Assembly: GCA_005518205.2 (NCBI GenBank)
Contig: RFFC02000037.1
Span: 1 to 64,000 of the forward strand
Direction of reading: 5' to 3'
From: Hormoscilla sp. GUM202
GTDB lineage: Bacteria; Cyanobacteriota; Cyanobacteriia; Cyanobacteriales; Desertifilaceae
Length of the DNA: 64,000 nucleotides
Part shown: positions 7,072 to 47,872 of the stretch, in pieces
How positions within the stretch are numbered: position 1 is the stretch's first letter
How the letters are laid out: each line of letters begins with the position of its first letter
The notes under the pieces: generated by a model
Database searches by the model: none
Told to the model about the DNA's origin: nothing
Seen by the model: the letters and a program-made list of their open reading frames with translations, nothing else
Translations under genes and position numbers: made by a program

Positions 7072-8853
7072 CTACTTTCGGGGTGGGAGATAAGATATGG
7101 GGTTATCCGCTCCCTTACCAGATGGATGGACCTCAAAATGCAGATGCGGGCCAGTGCTGTATCCCGTGCTGCCCATTTCGGCAATTGGCTGACCTTGCTT
7201 AACTTGCTCGCCCTCCTTTACCAGAATACGGTTATTATGGGCATAGCGAGTTAAACTGTGATCGGGATGGCGAATCTCAACTAGATTCCCGTAGCCACCA
7301 TTCCAGCCAGCGCCAGCAAATACTACCTCTCCAGAACCTGCTGACAAAATCAGCGTCCCGATCGGTCCTGCAATATCAATCCCCTTATGCAGCCGTCCCC
7401 ACCGCTCGCCATAGCCTGAAGTCAAAGTTCCTTTAGCTGGCCAGATATAGCCATTAAAGGAGGGTGTTTCTTCCCGCAAGTCTCTGTCCGGTGGTGGAGA
7501 AACCAATTGGTCATTCCTTATGGGGGCCACTGCCACCGCTTCTGGTTCATTCTCCCTCAAGTTATCCCCAGAATTTGCCTGCTTCTGGGGAATATCAACT
7601 AGATTCACGTAGCCAGCAAAGTCTACCACCTCAGGAGCTCCTGACAAAATCGGCACTTCGCCCATTACTAACTGGGCGGTAGCAACGGGGAAATTATTAG
7701 GTGTCCCCCACCGCACGTCATAGTGTGAAGTCAAAGTTCCTTTAGGTGGCCAAATATAGGCGGCTAGCAATATGGGGGCCACCGCTCCTGGTTTATTTGT
7801 GTTCTCCCCTGTCATCTCCATCCCTGCCGATGGTGCTGGTTGCGACTGTTCGAGCTGTCTAGCGGGCCAAAGGGCCTCATTGTTATCTCTCGAGTTATCC
7901 CCAGAAGTTGCCTGCTTCTGTTGCATTATCAAGCGTATTTCCTCGTGCTCCGAGAGCAACCCATCTATTATACACTGGCCATGTTCTGGGGCATGGGTGC
8001 AGTCAGTCGTTGGGGCGGATCCCCCCAAACCCCCCCTAGAACTATCAACTGGTTTTGACCACACCCCTGGGGCATTATTGAAAGTTGAACTTTCAGCGCT
8101 AGCAAACCCGAGACTGGTTGTTGGCCTTTTAGGGGGAATGGTCAGAAGTTGATTAACTTTGATCAGGTCCTCATCTGTCAGTTGATTAGCCTGCATCAAT
8201 TCAGGTATAGAAACATCATACTGACGAGAGATTTCTTCTAGCGTATCTCCAGCCCGAACCCGATGTCGGTTCCGGGTCAAGCTGGGGTGGACCTCACGTA
8301 TCTGTTCTGAACCCAGACCTATCGGAACTACCCTTCGGGTCTCAAGATCGGGCAGGTCCCTGGACCGCTCTAGGGCGTGATGTTGTTCCCTTAATCCCTG
8401 GATTTCAGCCCTCAAGCCATCCACATATACGGGGTGAACTGAGGTCATTTCTGGAATTAACCCAATCGCGTAGGGTGCGCGCAGCGCAATCGCCTCACTA
8501 GCTGGAGTATATGGCCAAGTTTGCGTTTCTGTTGCAGCAGAACCCAAATCTGTCCCGATTTTTCCGGCACGGTGCGCTGGAGCCTTTACCACCGGTTCTG
8601 CTGCCATTGCTCTGTCACTCTTTTGGTGCAGAAACAGGCTAGATATGGCGACTAACCCTATTGCAGCCGCCGCATGGAAGCCAACCCGACGATTTGTTTC
8701 TGGTTGGGTCTGTTTTGATGTACCCTCGCCCGATGTGCGATGCGCAGTGCGTTCCCAGGCAGAGCCTAGGAACGAGGCTCGCGCCTCGCACATCGGAGCA
8801 TTGAGAGGGCCATCAACCGACTGACAAACCTTCTGGGGTAATGTTCCTTTCAA
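7072..8853 (-). CDS. LysM and M23-family peptidoglycan endopeptidase
   Basis: A 593-aa envelope protein likely to cut or remodel peptidoglycan. A membrane/signal segment lies near residues 58-76, a LysM domain at about 197-240 (GDTLEEISRQYDVS), and a C-terminal M23 domain at about 470-590. Zinc ligands are visible as H489 and D493 (LHKGID) and H570/H572 (GPHLHFEVH), with YAHN near 539. Residues 365-420 are a degenerate second copy of the start of the M23 domain (YIWPPKGTLTSHY) without the zinc motif. Residues 21-43 come from a dispersed palindrome. The TTG start at 8853 is supported by GGAGG seven bases upstream. Confidence 0.88.
   Translation of the reverse strand: MKGTLPQKVCQSVDGPLNAPMCEARASFLGSAWERTAHRTSGEGTSKQTQPETNRRVGFHAAAAIGLVAISSLFLHQKSDRAMAAEPVVKAPAHRAGKIGTDLGSAATETQTWPYTPASEAIALRAPYAIGLIPEMTSVHPVYVDGLRAEIQGLREQHHALERSRDLPDLETRRVVPIGLGSEQIREVHPSLTRNRHRVRAGDTLEEISRQYDVSIPELMQANQLTDEDLIKVNQLLTIPPKRPTTSLGFASAESSTFNNAPGVWSKPVDSSRGGLGGSAPTTDCTHAPEHGQCIIDGLLSEHEEIRLIMQQKQATSGDNSRDNNEALWPARQLEQSQPAPSAGMEMTGENTNKPGAVAPILLAAYIWPPKGTLTSHYDVRWGTPNNFPVATAQLVMGEVPILSGAPEVVDFAGYVNLVDIPQKQANSGDNLRENEPEAVAVAPIRNDQLVSPPPDRDLREETPSFNGYIWPAKGTLTSGYGERWGRLHKGIDIAGPIGTLILSAGSGEVVFAGAGWNGGYGNLVEIRHPDHSLTRYAHNNRILVKEGEQVKQGQPIAEMGSTGYSTGPHLHFEVHPSGKGADNPISYLPPRK
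8730..8796. repeat. Palindromic element inside the M23 peptidase coding sequence
   Basis: Inverted ends CCGATGTGCGA / TCGCACATCGG enclose the dispersed core GTTCCCAGGCAGAGCC also found at 12356-12424, 13449-13628 and 45166-45190. It is in frame and adds about 22 residues near the N-terminus. Confidence 0.65.
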
Positions 8854-22380: not shown

Positions 22381-22722
22381 TCATTTATTGGATAGCAATG
22401 GTTCCAGTAAAGCAAGCAAATCCGGTATATCATTAGAGGCAGTATTCCAGACTTCATTGAGGTTTATATTGTCGTAATCATGGATTAAGTTATCCCGCAT
22501 ACCAGCGATATCTGACCAAGGAATCTCCGGATGTTGGTTCCGTAACTCAAAAGAGAGTCGCTTAACTGCTTCACCTACGATTAGCAGTTGGTAGACGATC
22601 GCAGACTGAGTTTTTTCATCTTCCAGAAAAGCAGCTTTGTTAAATCCCTGCTTGAAGGCCAGAACCTTTCGGGCCGCTGTGGCGATATCCAACAGTGAAG
22701 CAGTGTCTTTATTCGGAGGCAT
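22381..22722 (-). CDS. hepT: HepT-like HEPN ribonuclease toxin
   Basis: 113 aa, DUF86/HepT. The catalytic R-x4-H-x-Y motif is present as RDNLIHDY near residue 76. Preceding helices ([16 protein letters not shown]) match the family. HepT cleaves RNA and is neutralised when its MntA partner adds AMP to the motif tyrosine. The gene begins 14 bp inside the end of mntA, so the pair is co-translated. Confidence 0.9.
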
Positions 22723-23026
22723 AGATAATTTGAGCAGTGTCTAATATTTCTTGGCGACGGATCCAGTTTTGACTGCGTTCAATGGCGCATTTGCTGACTA
22801 GATCCACTTTCCGTCCGAAAATCCCCATGAGTTCTCGCTGCATTCTAACATGGTCAAGCAAGCCCCAATCTGCCTGGGGCGAGAATGCAATTAATAGATC
22901 GATGTCGCTATCGGGGCGGAAGTCATCCCTGAGTACCGATCCAAACAGGGCAAGTTCTCTCACCTGCCAGCGATCGCAGAAGTCAGAGATCTCATCGGAT
23001 GGCAACTTGATTGGCAGTATCAGCAT
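22709..23026 (-). CDS. mntA: MntA-like nucleotidyltransferase antitoxin
   Basis: 105 aa minimal nucleotidyltransferase. The active site [17 protein letters not shown] shows the GSxxR...SDxD pattern with both metal-binding aspartates. As antitoxin of MntA/HepT modules it AMPylates HepT. It is the first gene of the pair and overlaps hepT by 14 bp. The start is ATG at 23026. The module looks intact. Confidence 0.9.
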
Positions 23027-23789: not shown

Positions 23790-23895
23790 CGGGTATAACC
23801 AACCAAGAGGAAAGTTTCCGCCAATTGTGCCTCATACCTATGTATACCAATGGTTTCGACGATTCTTAAAACTTATTAAGCCTGCCACTTTCGCA

Positions 23896-24010
23896 CCCGA
23901 TCGCCGGTTGTCATCCGGGCCTCTGGAACTACCCGATCGCCGGTTGTCATCCGGGCCTCTGGAACTACCCGATCGCCGGTTATAATCCTGGCCTCTCGAA
24001 CTACCCGATC
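23896..24010. repeat. 36-bp tandem repeat, about three copies
   Basis: Unit CCCGATCGCCGGTTGTCATC followed by CGGGCCTCTGGAACTA, repeated with a 36-bp period; the third copy is diverged. Single copies lie at about 25571-25615 and 27721-27765, at the same relative place in the duplicated blocks. No spacers are present, so it is not a CRISPR array. Confidence 0.8.
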
Positions 24011-24195
24011 GCCCCCATAGACAGTTCCCGACAGCATGGCCTTGACAAATCAGCAAGTTTATGGTAAATTACATGATTTTCAGCAGGCGATCGCCCCGAT
24101 GGGTTTGATAACTGCCATCGGAAACATGGTAGCGATCGTATACTATAATAGTCTAAGCAAGTGTCATATAAAATACGTTTGAGTACGATAGAGGA

Positions 24196-24315
24196 GGGTG
24201 CATCTCACTTTCGCACGGGCGAAGCATTTCGATAGGAAATCTGTCAACTTCTGACAAAACTTGTCGCAGAAATGCTTCGCCCCTACAGATAGAATTGCAA
24301 ATATGAGATGCACCC
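24196..24315. mobile_element. 120-bp MITE with 8-bp target-site duplication
   Basis: Terminal inverted repeats GGGTGCATCTCA at both ends, an inner inverted repeat GGGCGAAGCATTT / AAATGCTTCGCCC, and direct repeats ATAGAGGA at 24188-24195 and 24316-24323. The sister copy of this region (25786-25800) has a single GATGGAGGATC-type site and no insert, which acts as an empty site. It has no coding capacity and would need a transposase in trans. Confidence 0.88.
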
Positions 24316-24328
24316 ATAGAGGATCTAT

Positions 24329-24571
24329 ATGAAAGCTGAGGAACTGGATCGTAAGTTTGACAAGGGGGAGGACGTGCTGGAGTTTTTCGATCTGTCTACT
24401 TTGAGACGACCAGGATTAGAAAATAAGCCGGTGAATGGGGTATTGCCTATCGGTGCCAGCAGGCGATCGCGCGACCCCAAAGCTACCCATGAAGTGAACT
24501 GTCCCTTAGCTTCCCACAACAAACTTAAGAATGATGCCGATCGTGGTAGCCACAATCAAGCTCAAGGCTAG
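24329..24571 (+). pseudogene. Truncated CopG/BrnA-type antitoxin, copy 1
   Basis: The first 36 residues (MKAEELDRKFDKGEDVLEFF, DLSTLRRPGLENKPVN) match the start of a common cyanobacterial BrnA/CopG-like antitoxin whose DNA-binding half should follow with 'VDFP.WM...LD.EA'. Here the frame instead runs into the GCCAGCAGGCGATCGC leader and into antisense sequence of the neighbouring membrane-protein gene. Only the N-terminal stub is genuine. Confidence 0.65.
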
Positions 24572-24751
24572 ATTGACAATCCCTTGAGTCCCTTGCCGAT
24601 AAGCTTCCGCAAGAGATCCTGAACGATCTAGGTGCTTTACTGATTTATCTAGGCGTGCTACTGAATGCTCTAGGCTTGTTACTAAACGATCTAGGCGAGT
24701 GCGTATCTCCTTGACTTCTTCGAGAATCTGGCTCATTTCTGACTGAGTCAT
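24506..24751 (-). CDS. Small coiled-coil membrane protein, copy 1
   Basis: 81 aa. N-terminal heptad region (RLDRLVTSLEHSVARLDKSV, then KHLDRSGSLAEAYRQGTQ) and a single C-terminal membrane segment (VNLALSLIVATTIGIILKFV). ATG at 24751 has GGAGG nine bases upstream. Paralogues at 25979-26200, 26479-26670 and 26954-27174 differ mainly in coiled-coil length. Unknown function; the layout is that of a tail-anchored oligomer. It lies downstream of a Uma2 gene on the same strand (about 160 bp). Confidence 0.65.
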   Translation of the reverse strand: MTQSEMSQILEEVKEIRTRLDRLVTSLEHSVARLDKSVKHLDRSGSLAEAYRQGTQGIVNLALSLIVATTIGIILKFVVGS

Positions 24752-24833
24752 TGTCAATTACCTCCAACACAAATATAATCTAACAACTATCTCGTGGTCA
24801 CAAGTAGTTTGATAGCCGCATCGCTCGATGCAT

Positions 24834-24897
24834 GTAATATAGCCCGCGCAGGCGGGCTTTGTTCGAGTAGCCGGACCCTTTAGGGTTCGGGCGGCGA
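24834..24897. repeat. Dispersed element with GCCCGCGCAGGCGGGC hairpin
   Basis: TAGCCCGCGCAGGCGGGCTTT followed by GTAGCCGGACCCTTTAGGGT. Nearly identical to 46930-46988; the first hairpin also occurs near 47830. It sits between the Uma2 gene and the small membrane-protein gene. Confidence 0.7.
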
Positions 24898-24908
24898 GGA
24901 GTACCAAC

Positions 24909-25478
24909 TTATGCTCTACCTTGACCTACTTTTAACCAACCAAAGACTTGCTCTGCTGTTATCATCATATCAATTCCCGCCAGCACGCGCAGTTGCTGAC
25001 TACCTCTGCACAGGTTTGGTTCTTCCTGTGGAGCAAAGATCAGCACAGAGTAGTCATCCGGATCTAGCAGCCATCCTAATTTACTGCCGTGACCCAGGCA
25101 ATGTAAAATATTATCAATGACTCTATTGGCATTTTGGTCAGGCGACAGAATCTCAATGGACCAATCTGGAGCTTCAAGAAAGTTATCTTCTGGCTCTTCT
25201 GATTCATTAACCTTAATTTTATCCCAAGATACCACAACAATATCCGGGACCACAGAACGCCCGCCAAAAGTGCAACGCAGTTCTGGGAGAGCGGTATATT
25301 CCTCGCTGCGATCGTCGATCGCCCTTAGCAAGCGTTTCTGTAAAATCGAGTGTCTGGTTTTAGGCATTGGCTTTTGTATGGCAACTCCTTTTACATACTC
25401 CCATGCAGGAGACTCCTCTAGGGAGGGCGAGTTCAGAAATTCTGCGAGAGTGAGAGTTTTCGCTAATGTTGCAGTCAT
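24909..25478 (-). CDS. Uma2-family (DUF820) putative endonuclease, copy 1
   Basis: 189 aa, PD-(D/E)xK-type fold common in cyanobacteria. Family features: N-terminal TLAEFLNSPSLEESPAWEYV, core VVPDIVVVSWDKI (PD motif) and APDWSIEILSPDQN (E-x-L), and C-terminal AGIDMMITAEQVFGWLKV. Cellular role is unknown. Its 3' end is duplicated as short tails at 26329-26399 and 26810-26873, and a truncated second copy is at 27250-27708. Confidence 0.85.
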   Translation of the reverse strand: MTATLAKTLTLAEFLNSPSLEESPAWEYVKGVAIQKPMPKTRHSILQKRLLRAIDDRSEEYTALPELRCTFGGRSVVPDIVVVSWDKIKVNESEEPEDNFLEAPDWSIEILSPDQNANRVIDNILHCLGHGSKLGWLLDPDDYSVLIFAPQEEPNLCRGSQQLRVLAGIDMMITAEQVFGWLKVGQGRA

Positions 25479-25801
25479 GGCTTACTGTCTGAAGATCGGC
25501 ATCAATTCCAGTATAACCCCAAAGGGACGATCTGGTTTTAAATAATTCTCAAGCCTCCCACTTTCTTCCCCGATCGCCGGTTGTCATCCTGGCCTCTGTA
25601 ACTACCCGATCGCCTCCCATACACAGTTCCTACAGCATGACCTTGAAAAATCAGCAAGTTTATGGTAAATTACATGATTTTCAGCAGGCGATCGCCCCGA
25701 TGGGTTTGATAACTGCCATCGGAAACATGGTAGCGATCGTATACTATAATAGTCTAAGCAAGTGTCATAGAAAATACGTTTGAGTACGATGGAGGATCTA
25801 T

Positions 25802-26044
25802 ATGAAAGCCGAGGAACTGGATCGTAAGTTTGACAAAGGGGAGAACGTGCTGGAGTTTTTCGATCTGTCTAATTTGAGACGACCAGGATTAGAAAATAAG
25901 CCGGTGACTGGGGTCTTGCCTATCGCTGCCAGCAGGCGATCGCGCGACCCCAAAGCCACCCATGAAGTGAACTGTCCCTTAGCTTCCCAGAACAAACTTA
26001 AGAATGATGCCGATCGTGGTAGCCACAATCAGGCTAAAGGCTAG
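25802..26044 (+). pseudogene. Truncated CopG/BrnA-type antitoxin, copy 2
   Basis: Near-identical sister of the stub at 24329-24571, truncated at the same place (after LENKPV), so the truncation predates the duplication. This copy lacks the MITE just upstream and serves as the empty-site reference. Confidence 0.65.
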
Positions 26045-26200
26045 ATTCACAACCCATTGAGTCCCCTGCCGATAAGCTTCCGCAAGATCTGCTGAACGCT
26101 CTAGGTGTTCTACTGAACGCTCTAGGCGATCTAGACGCTTTAGGCTAGTGCGGATCTCCTTCAGCTCTTCCAGAATTTGATCTATGTCTGACTGAGTCAT
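25979..26200 (-). CDS. Small coiled-coil membrane protein, copy 2
   Basis: 73 aa. Shorter heptad region than copy 1 (SLKRLDRLERSVEHLERSAD), then AEAYRQGTQ and the same C-terminal membrane helix (LAFSLIVATTIGIILKFVLG). ATG at 26200 after GGAGG. Intact frame. Confidence 0.65.
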   Translation of the reverse strand: MTQSDIDQILEELKEIRTSLKRLDRLERSVEHLERSADLAEAYRQGTQWVVNLAFSLIVATTIGIILKFVLGS

Positions 26201-26328
26201 TGTCAATTACCTCCAACACAAATATAACATAACGGTGAAGCAGCATCTCTAAGAGGAATATATCCCCGATCGCACCGGACGCTCTCTTATCTCTAGATTA
26301 TAGCGCCAATTTTTTTTACCTGAATTAC

Positions 26329-26399
26329 TTATACTCTACTTCGATCTACTTCGATCCAACCAAATACTTGCTCTGCCGTTAGCCTCATATCAATAATTC
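26329..26399 (-). pseudogene. Uma2 C-terminal remnant
   Basis: Encodes IIDMRLTAEQVFGWIEVDRS then RV and a stop, matching the last 23 residues of the Uma2 gene at 24909-25478. Nothing else of the gene remains. It sits upstream of small membrane-protein copy 2 on this strand, as the full gene does for copy 1. Confidence 0.7.
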
Positions 26400-26478
26400 T
26401 GGGTCGATCGCTTTCTTGCATATCTGTGCCAGCAGGCGATCGCGCGACCCCAAAGCCACCCATGAGGTGAACTGTCAC

Positions 26479-26670
26479 TTAGCTTCCCAGAACAAACTTA
26501 AGAATGATGCCGATCGTGGTGGCCACAATCAGACTAAAGGCTAGATTCACAACCCATTGAGTTCCCTGTCGATAAGCGTCCGCAAGATCTACTGAACGCT
26601 CTAGGTTGTCTAGGCGAGTGTTGATCTCATTCAGCTTTTCCAGAATTTGCTCTATGTCTGACTGAGTCAT
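26479..26670 (-). CDS. Small coiled-coil membrane protein, copy 3
   Basis: 63 aa, the shortest version: a single heptad block (RLDNLERSVDLADAYRQGTQ) and the conserved membrane helix. ATG at 26670 after GGAGG. Compared with copies 1 and 2 the coiled coil is shortened by whole in-frame units. Confidence 0.65.
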   Translation of the reverse strand: MTQSDIEQILEKLNEINTRLDNLERSVDLADAYRQGTQWVVNLAFSLIVATTIGIILKFVLGS

Positions 26671-26809
26671 TGTCAATTACCTCCAACACAAATATAACAT
26701 AACGGTGAAGCAGCATCTCTAGGAGTAATATCCCATATCGCACCTGATGCTCTCTTCTCTCATTATTATAGCGCGAATTGTTCTTACTTCAATTACTTGT
26801 ACAATATTT

Positions 26810-26873
26810 TACCTACTTTTTCCAACCAAATACTTGCTCTGCCCCTAGCCTAATTAGCCTCATATCAATAATT
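26810..26873 (-). pseudogene. Second Uma2 C-terminal remnant
   Basis: Matches the Uma2 tail around LTAEQVFGW but with internal changes and a small duplication (TAATTAGCC). Same position relative to membrane-protein copy 3. Confidence 0.55.
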
Positions 26874-26953
26874 AGGGGGAGATCGCCTTCTTGTATATCG
26901 GTGCCAGCAGGCGATCGCGCGACCCCAAAGCCACCCATGAGGTAAACTGTCCC

Positions 26954-27174
26954 TTAGTTTCCCAGAACAAACTTAAGAATGATGCCGATCGTGGTAGCCA
27001 CAATCAGGCTAAAGGCTAGATTCACAGTCCCTTGAGTCCCTTGCCGATAAGCTTCCGCAAGAGATCCTGAACGCTCTAGGTGCTCTACTGATTTGTCTGT
27101 GCTACTAAACGATCTAGGCGAGTGCGGATCTCCTTCACTTCTTCCAGAATCTGGCTCATTTCTGACTGAGTCAT
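26954..27174 (-). pseudogene. Small coiled-coil membrane protein, copy 4, frameshifted
   Basis: Starts normally (MTQSEMSQILEEVKEIRTRL, DRLV) but reads into AQTNQ and a stop. The downstream frame resumes as KSVEHLERSGSLAEAYRQGT and the membrane helix. A deletion in the heptad region, not a multiple of three, caused the shift. Confidence 0.7.
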
Positions 27175-27249
27175 TGTCAATTACCTCCAACACAAATATA
27201 ATCTAACAACTCTCTCTAGATTATAGCGCAATTTTTTTCCCGGCATTAC

Positions 27250-27708
27250 TTATGCTCTACCTTGACCTACTTTTAACCAACCAAAGACTTGCTCTGCTGT
27301 TATCATCATATCAATTCCCGCTAGCACGCGCAGTTGCTGACTACCTCTGCAAAGGTTTGGTTCTTGCTGTGGAGCAAAGATCAGCACTGAGTAGTCATCC
27401 GGATCGATCGGCCATCCTAATTGACTGCCGTGACCCAGGCAATGTAAAATATTATCAATGACTCTATTGGCATTTTGGTCAGGCGAAAGAATCTCAATAG
27501 ACCAATCTGGAGCTTCAAGAAAATTATCTTCTGGCTCTTCTGCTTCATTAACCTTAATTTTATCCCAAGATACCAAAACAATATCCGGGACAACAGAACG
27601 CCCGCCAAAAGTGCAACGAAGTTCCGGGAGAGCGGTATATTCCTCGCGGCTATCGTCGATCGCCGGAAGCAAACGTTTCTGTAAAATCGAGTGTCTGGTT
27701 TTAGGCAT
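27250..27708 (-). pseudogene. Uma2-family gene lacking its N-terminus, copy 2
   Basis: 152 aa starting at MPKTRHSILQKRLLPAIDD, about 95% identical by eye to residues 38-189 of the gene at 24909-25478. The first 37 codons are replaced by the 36-bp-repeat sequence. The PD...E-x-L core is retained, so a product from the internal ATG is conceivable, but loss of the 5' end suggests decay. Confidence 0.7.
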
Positions 27709-27961
27709 TTGCTTTTGTCTATCGATCGCAGGTTTTCCGCCGGACCTCTGGAACTACCAGATCGCCCCTCATAGACAGTTCTCGACAGCATGACATTGAC
27801 AAATCAGCAAGTTTATGGGAAATTACATGATTGTCAGCAGGCGATCGCCCCGATGGGTTTCATAACTGCCATCCTCAAATTTTGCTGTTGCCTAAACCCC
27901 CGGGGCGAGTCTAAAGCAGTCTCAGCACTACCAAAAAAATTACGGACAAGCAAATAACTAA

Positions 27962-28228: not shown

Positions 28229-28374
28229 ACGGGTGTGGTCAAAAGTAGTTGCAGCGGGATCCCCCCCAAACCCCCCCTCCCCCCCTGTAGCGGCAGATTT
28301 GAACCGGTAGATTTTCCCAGAAAGTTGACACAGGGGCGATCGGGGGCTATGATGGTGGATTGTGTAACTGGTGA

Positions 28375-46929: not shown

Positions 46930-46988
46930 CATGTATATAGCCCGCGCAGGCGGGCTTTGTTGTAGCCGGACCCTTTAGGGTTCGGACC
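46930..46988. repeat. Dispersed element with GCCCGCGCAGGCGGGC hairpin, copy 2
   Basis: Near-identical to 24834-24897 (hairpin, then GTAGCCGGACCCTTTAGGGT). The rest of the 46797-47064 gap shows nothing else. Confidence 0.7.
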
Positions 46989-47510: not shown

Positions 47511-47796
47511 AACTGGTTTTGACCTTAGCGAATGCCCGATCGCCGGTCCATTGTAGCATTTCGTCCATAGGTCAAGGTGGGGAGTCACCGGTCATGGTTG
47601 AAGTTAGCAGATCCCACGAGCGCACTCTTAGCCACTAAATTCTACTTTTTACCACTAAAACAACTGATAAGTTTTCATAATACCCACCGTATACCACTTT
47701 AATTTCCACTTTTAGCCCTTGGCTTTGCCAAATTTATATGACAAGATAGTAAAAGAACAGATGAAGGCGACCCCACCAGACACAAATCTGGGATGC

Positions 47797-47872
47797 AGCA
47801 GGTTAAAACCTGCCGCTACAGGAACTCAGCCCGCCTGCGCGGGCTGTTAGACGCAAATGAGATGCACCAGGG
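47797..47872. repeat. Palindromic repeat element abutting an LRR fragment
   Basis: CAGGTTAAAACCTG and AGCCCGCCTGCGCGGGCT hairpins, ending in ACGCAAATGAGATGCACC. The ending resembles the terminal repeat of the MITE at 24196-24315 (TGAGATGCACC). Confidence 0.55.

Follow-up and report, generated by a model that had tools for sequence, protein, structure and literature searches.

Within the 64,000-nucleotide stretch of Hormoscilla sp. GUM202 analysed here (contig RFFC02000037.1; hereafter, the window), one of two homologous blocks carries a 120-bp insert which its sister lacks, raising the questions of what kind of element this is, when it arrived, which enzyme could have moved it and where its interior came from. 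We consider it to be, with a probability of roughly 0.93, a non-autonomous MITE whose ends would serve as recognition sites for Mutator-like DDE transposases of the ISKra4 family (p-MULT 4). As an ISKra4-type MITE, the element is ordinary in kind; the added interest lies in its modular core. The features discussed below are collected in Table 1.

Table 1. Coordinates, in the window, of the MITE, its parts, the sister block and a probable relative.
Feature	Position	Strand	Remarks
MITE, no coding capacity	24196..24315	+	120 bp; direct reading
Left copy of the target duplication, ATAGAGGA	24188..24195	.	8 bp; direct reading
Right copy of the target duplication, ATAGAGGA	24316..24323	.	8 bp; direct reading
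Left terminal inverted repeat, GGGTGCATCTCACTTTCGCA	24196..24215	+	first 12 bp perfect, 17/20 matched
Right terminal inverted repeat, TGCAAATATGAGATGCACCC	24296..24315	-	direct reading
Inner core, GTAG-tagged palindromic repeat	24217..24288	-	arms 24217-24230 and 24269-24282
GTAG tag of the inner core	24283-24286	-	unpaired
Sister duplicate block without insert	25609..26227	+	homologous to 24008-24195 plus 24316-24778
Empty target site in the sister block, ATGGAGGA	25789..25796	.	flanks GAGTACG ... TCTATATG
Probable decayed family member	47781..47869	+	left end missing; remains of the right end(s) surround a GC-rich palindrome

The filled locus reads GAGTACG ATAGAGGA / GGGTGCATCTCA...TGAGATGCACCC / ATAGAGGA TCTATATG. 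The earlier note on this DNA had proposed a MITE with exact ends, 12-bp terminal inverted repeats and an 8-bp target duplication, and direct reading bears out both the position and the ATAGAGGA octamer on either side. Two of these statements can be refined. The terminal repeats are indeed perfect over 12 bp but continue, with mismatches, to about 20 bp, and the duplication, 8 bp at this element, is either 8 or 9 bp across the family. The properties by which MITEs are recognised are found here: the element is short and non-coding, has terminal inverted repeats, and its target duplication is matched by empty sites, one in the sister block and two in another genome of the same genus (G001). The MITE strand folds much better than its shuffled versions (z = -7.6, with none of 200 shuffles as good). 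Its sole Rfam match, to mir-722, is below threshold and was dismissed as a chance match.

The sister block reads on uninterrupted (...GTTTGAGTACG ATGGAGGA TCTATATGAAAGC...). Homology to the left of the insert (24008-24195 versus 25609-25796, 96%) stops at 25796 and that to the right resumes at 25789, an overlap of exactly 8 bp, as follows from the doubling of the same 8 bp around the element. The earlier note had stated that the sister block has the same flanks without the insert; the flanks do match, but the octamer is one base off, with A in both copies of the duplication and G in the empty site, so the substitution in the filled block preceded the insertion. Furthermore, G001 carries the block twice, at a distance of 1.9 kb (C6:1084703 and C6:1086577), both copies empty and with ATGGAGGA, which argues that the block duplication is older than the split from G001 and the insertion younger. 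The proposed order, duplication before insertion, is thus not only supported but strengthened.

The right flanks support this order: on that side, the filled block shares 97.0% identity with one G001 block as against 93.0% with the other, and the empty block shares 99.0% with the second G001 block. On the left, the filled block points in the opposite direction, being slightly nearer the other G001 block (97.9 versus 95.8%); the left-flank identities are less decisive and suggest some exchange between blocks. Given such probable exchange and the arrangement of the blocks as a tandem array of several similar copies, one might suppose that the element predates the block duplication and was lost again from the 'empty' blocks, either excised precisely or overwritten through gene conversion off an empty copy. 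We regard this as very unlikely: three independent empty copies, one here and two in G001, all have ATGGAGGA, whereas both copies of the duplication are ATAGAGGA, and precise excision would have to restore the same octamer every time. One late insertion would be the simpler account, and exchange between blocks leaves the order of events unchanged because both G001 blocks are empty.

The insertion point is an octamer containing GGAGGA, which resembles a ribosome-binding site, 8 nt upstream of an ATG. The duplication restores GGAGGA beside the ATG, and the sequence upstream is displaced by 128 bp. The short reading frame downstream of the insert, which had no Pfam match, seems to be what remains of a truncated frame in both blocks, and hence no phenotype would be expected. 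The tandem array as a whole (23863-27949) comprises three to four similar blocks with short truncated frames, includes Uma2-family genes (24909-25478 and 27250-27708) and adjoins a HepT-like/nucleotidyltransferase pair (22381-23026). At 24840-24863, Rfam reports CRISPR-DR28 over the gathering score. There is just one copy, embedded in a GC-rich palindrome, AGCCCGCGCAGGCGGGCT, which is found again at 46939-46956 and in the interior of other MITEs; the match is probably a false CRISPR call.

Does the element belong to a family? Within the window, the 12-bp end with up to two mismatches occurs 7 times against 5.3 expected, which is not above chance, and the family claim therefore rests on the whole-genome search. 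The similar end near 47862, offered in the earlier note as a hint of a family, proves nothing by itself, although the match at 47858-47869 has the appearance of a right end left over from a decayed member. The 6.87-Mb genome has 160 exact copies of the 12-bp end, compared to 0 for the reversed control, so that the search for further copies suggested there gave a clear answer, and the outcome that would have spoken against a family, no other copies, is plainly absent. Elsewhere, the exact end is found 97 and 112 times in the two other members of the genus and 34 times in genome G017, with 0-7 occurrences in most of the order. In a sample of about 2 Mb of the 6.87-Mb genome, read as stretches, ends of the same type with perfect duplications delimit 46 distinct elements of 51 to 2431 bp; the duplication is 8 bp long in 29 and 9 bp in 17, the apparent 1-bp offsets of some duplications being 9-bp duplications. 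The short elements with perfect duplications (21 distinct ones) lie at unrelated sites. Other MITEs of this first family have quite different interiors, for instance, GC-rich palindromes, one of which also stands alone at 24841-24858. The same ends with 8-9-bp duplications are present in Okeania, Moorena, Microcystis, Baaleninema, Hormoscilla, Microcoleus and others.

Across a contiguous 1.26 Mb, convergent ends form 17 short pairs, of which 8 are bordered by an exact duplication (9 if one mismatch is allowed), as opposed to 0 of 272 when flanks of different elements were cross-paired; about half of these pairs are now without a perfect duplication. Were the octamers and terminal repeats due to chance, or to a static palindromic repeat of the REP kind with no transposon behind it, neither this contrast nor the empty sites nor the 46 elements with perfect 8- or 9-bp duplications would be expected. 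The inner core truly is such a palindrome and also stands alone, but for the outer 120-bp element the static reading is already refuted, and we assign it practically no weight.

Among the elements bounded by ends of this kind, the long ones are insertion sequences (1218, 1311/1316, 1376, 1587 and 1406 bp). Those of 1186-1587 bp with similar ends and duplications encode transposases that exceed the curated NCBIfam cut-off for the ISKra4 family (NF033572, ISKra4 family transposase; E 3e-72 to 4e-75), a model with 147 matches in the genome. The search for a transposase gene with matching ends and 8-bp duplications, also suggested in the earlier note, thus led to IS of the ISKra4 type. In the 1587-bp IS, the transposase frames overlap in a -1 relation. 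The exact 12-bp ends of the MITE (12/12) recur on two IS. One, of 1406 bp, is located in the same genome (C15:93697-95102, duplication TATTTCGC), where a second copy (C3:138824-141254, 99.6% identical to the first) is interrupted by an element with an IS630-like transposase, which we take to be of the IS630 type from the look of the protein; the ISKra4 frame, as read from the sequence, is broken in both copies. The other, of 1227 bp, is present in many copies in G017, with an open frame of 317 aa and 8-bp duplications. The ends of intact IS in the GUM202 genome match at 10-11 of 12 positions, being off by one or two bases (GGGTGCATCCCA, GGGAGCATCCCA). Since the IS with exact ends in this genome is broken, as far as the sequence read shows, and the intact ones have variant ends, today's helper would have to accept variant ends.

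Taken together, these findings favour an ISKra4-family MITE, which ISKra4-family transposases most likely move in trans. A transposase of a different family that happens to share these ends might be held responsible instead, as the link to ISKra4 is known from sequence and the exact-end IS of this genome looks inactive. However, every full-length element examined between such ends contains either an ISKra4-family transposase gene or what is left of one, and the length of the duplications agrees with the superfamily, leaving this alternative highly improbable. One candidate parent, the most ISKra4-like multicopy gene group with a 460-aa frame (L125-L130), was rejected, its ends being GGGTGTAATTAAAAGTG. 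Composites of a MITE end and an IS of the 1376-bp type were also observed (L065/C1:87959-89661, 1703 bp, and L168:8481-10129, 1649 bp), each with its own 8- or 9-bp duplications, as though the MITE and the IS had been transposed together.

A second MITE family, with GGGTGTGGTCAAAA ends, inhabits the same genome, where these ends occur 227 times exactly, compared to 0 in controls. Its MITEs have duplications of mostly 9 bp, and an IS of 1943 bp with the same ends and 9-bp duplications encodes a 385-aa protein whose match to the ISKra4 model (6.7e-30) falls short of the cut-off. This IS and its MITEs are found at C10:73082-75024, C41, C7 and C25, and ends of the GGGTGTGGTCAAAA type are also present in the window (28231-28244 and 8053-8066).

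The two families bear on the origin of the MITE interior. A similarity search with the MITE returned copies that cover only its positions 22-93, a core of about 70 nt (GGGCGAAGCAT...ATGCTTCGCCCCTAC(AG)) which, judging from the flanks, is present in elements with other ends (GGGTGTGGTCAAAA...TTTTGACCACACCC and GGGTACACTGCA). It occurs within both GGGTGCATCTCA-end and GGGTGTGGTCAAAA-end MITEs and also stands alone, outside MITEs. The inner inverted repeat of the earlier note is therefore real, but it belongs to a separate repeat family rather than to the MITE proper. Across relatives, cores and ends dissociate: genome G016 has 64 copies of the core and 4 ends of the first type, whereas G017, despite its 34 ends, has no core. 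The core is accordingly a repeat in its own right, which two or more MITE families have probably captured. We infer that the interior of the MITE is not derived from an IS and that a pre-existing palindrome was captured between the ends.

All copies shown of the core are palindromes with an unpaired GTAG at one end (...ATGCTTCGCCCCTAC), with a stem of 14-16 bp and a loop of about 35 nt. Stem pairing holds in 97.9% of cells across 26 copies of the GUM202 genome, with 19 double changes versus 4.3 in shuffles, and in 98.6% across 13 copies of G016, with 20 double changes versus 6.9, the shuffles leaving the relatedness of the copies in place. When the partner is shifted by one column, pairing falls to about half. 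At the same inner stem pairs, CG, UA, GC and AU are exchanged in two genomes. The palindrome appears to be kept up, either by selection on the hairpin or by template-switch correction, as the pair exchanges are hard to explain otherwise. In some cores, part of the stem is swapped for another palindrome, GCTAGCTGCTGCGCAGCCGCTGCGCTAGC (L011, L016, L355 and C1:131001-131094), forming a hairpin within a hairpin.

The following course of events may be envisaged. A transposase from a resident ISKra4-type IS would bind the GGGTGCATCTCAcTTTtGCA ends of about 20 bp, excise or copy the MITE and join it to a staggered cut, yielding an 8- or 9-bp duplication. The present copy would have landed in the GGAGGA octamer of one already duplicated block, after the split from G001. 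Its palindromic repeat of about 70 nt would have existed beforehand and been captured between the MITE ends, the same repeat being captured also by the second ISKra4-type MITE family. More tentatively, with slightly less than even odds in our estimation, the core spreads by itself and has repeatedly entered MITEs of different ISKra4-type transposons (GGGTGCATCTCA, GGGTGTGGTCAAAA and possibly GGGTACACTGCA), such that cyanobacterial MITEs would be modular, consisting of end modules supplied by IS and of swapped hairpin cores in which selection or template-switch correction preserves pairing.

With both paralogous and orthologous empty sites, the insertion is clean and dated; it shows where the members of a large cyanobacterial MITE family, apparently without a name so far, begin and end and how long their duplications are, and it connects this family with transposases of a known kind. 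The GGGTGCATCTCA end sequence was not found in the MITE literature searched, and searches on the end sequence, ISKra4 MITEs and MITEs with a shared interior turned up no earlier description. The shared core suggests that interchangeable modules can be combined into small bacterial repeats; this would account for the difficulty of classifying interspersed repeats in cyanobacteria, and the core offers a testable system for the spread of hairpin repeats.

Several known systems invite comparison. In Microcystis aeruginosa PCC 7806, 152-bp border repeats with the inverted repeat GGGCGAAGCATTCGGA flank a toxin-antitoxin pair as direct repeats (PMC7935541); this 16-bp inverted repeat is the arm of the inner core, although the border repeats are not described there as mobile or MITE-borne. 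The core further resembles the GTAG REP repeats (PMC3733652) in being a palindrome with an unpaired GTAG at one end and variable but complementary stem residues, interspersed in a cyanobacterium. However, its stem of 14-16 bp and loop of about 35 nt exceed the published ranges (stem 5-13, loop 2-20; PMC3733652) and place it outside that definition. The whole element is similar to the cyanobacterial MITEs Nezha and those of Microcystis, which, by their description as relayed in PMC10969869, are short and non-coding, with terminal inverted repeats and target duplications. Finally, unlike members of the ISKra4 family (p-MULT 4, with the ISMich2, ISKra4 and ISAzba1 groups; PMC3942029), the MITE is only 120 bp long, non-coding and shares with them only the ends of about 20 bp. 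Nevertheless, this superfamily is characterised by direct repeats of 8 or 9 bp and terminal repeats of 18-39 bp (PMC3942029), and the family likeness extends to the GGG.../...CCC ends, the 8- or 9-bp direct repeats and the NF033572 matches of the local transposases. The two-frame arrangement of the 1587-bp IS recalls the ISMich2 group, in which the transposase is produced by -1 frameshift (Guerillot et al. 2014, PMC3942029), a likeness of frames rather than a placement in the tree.
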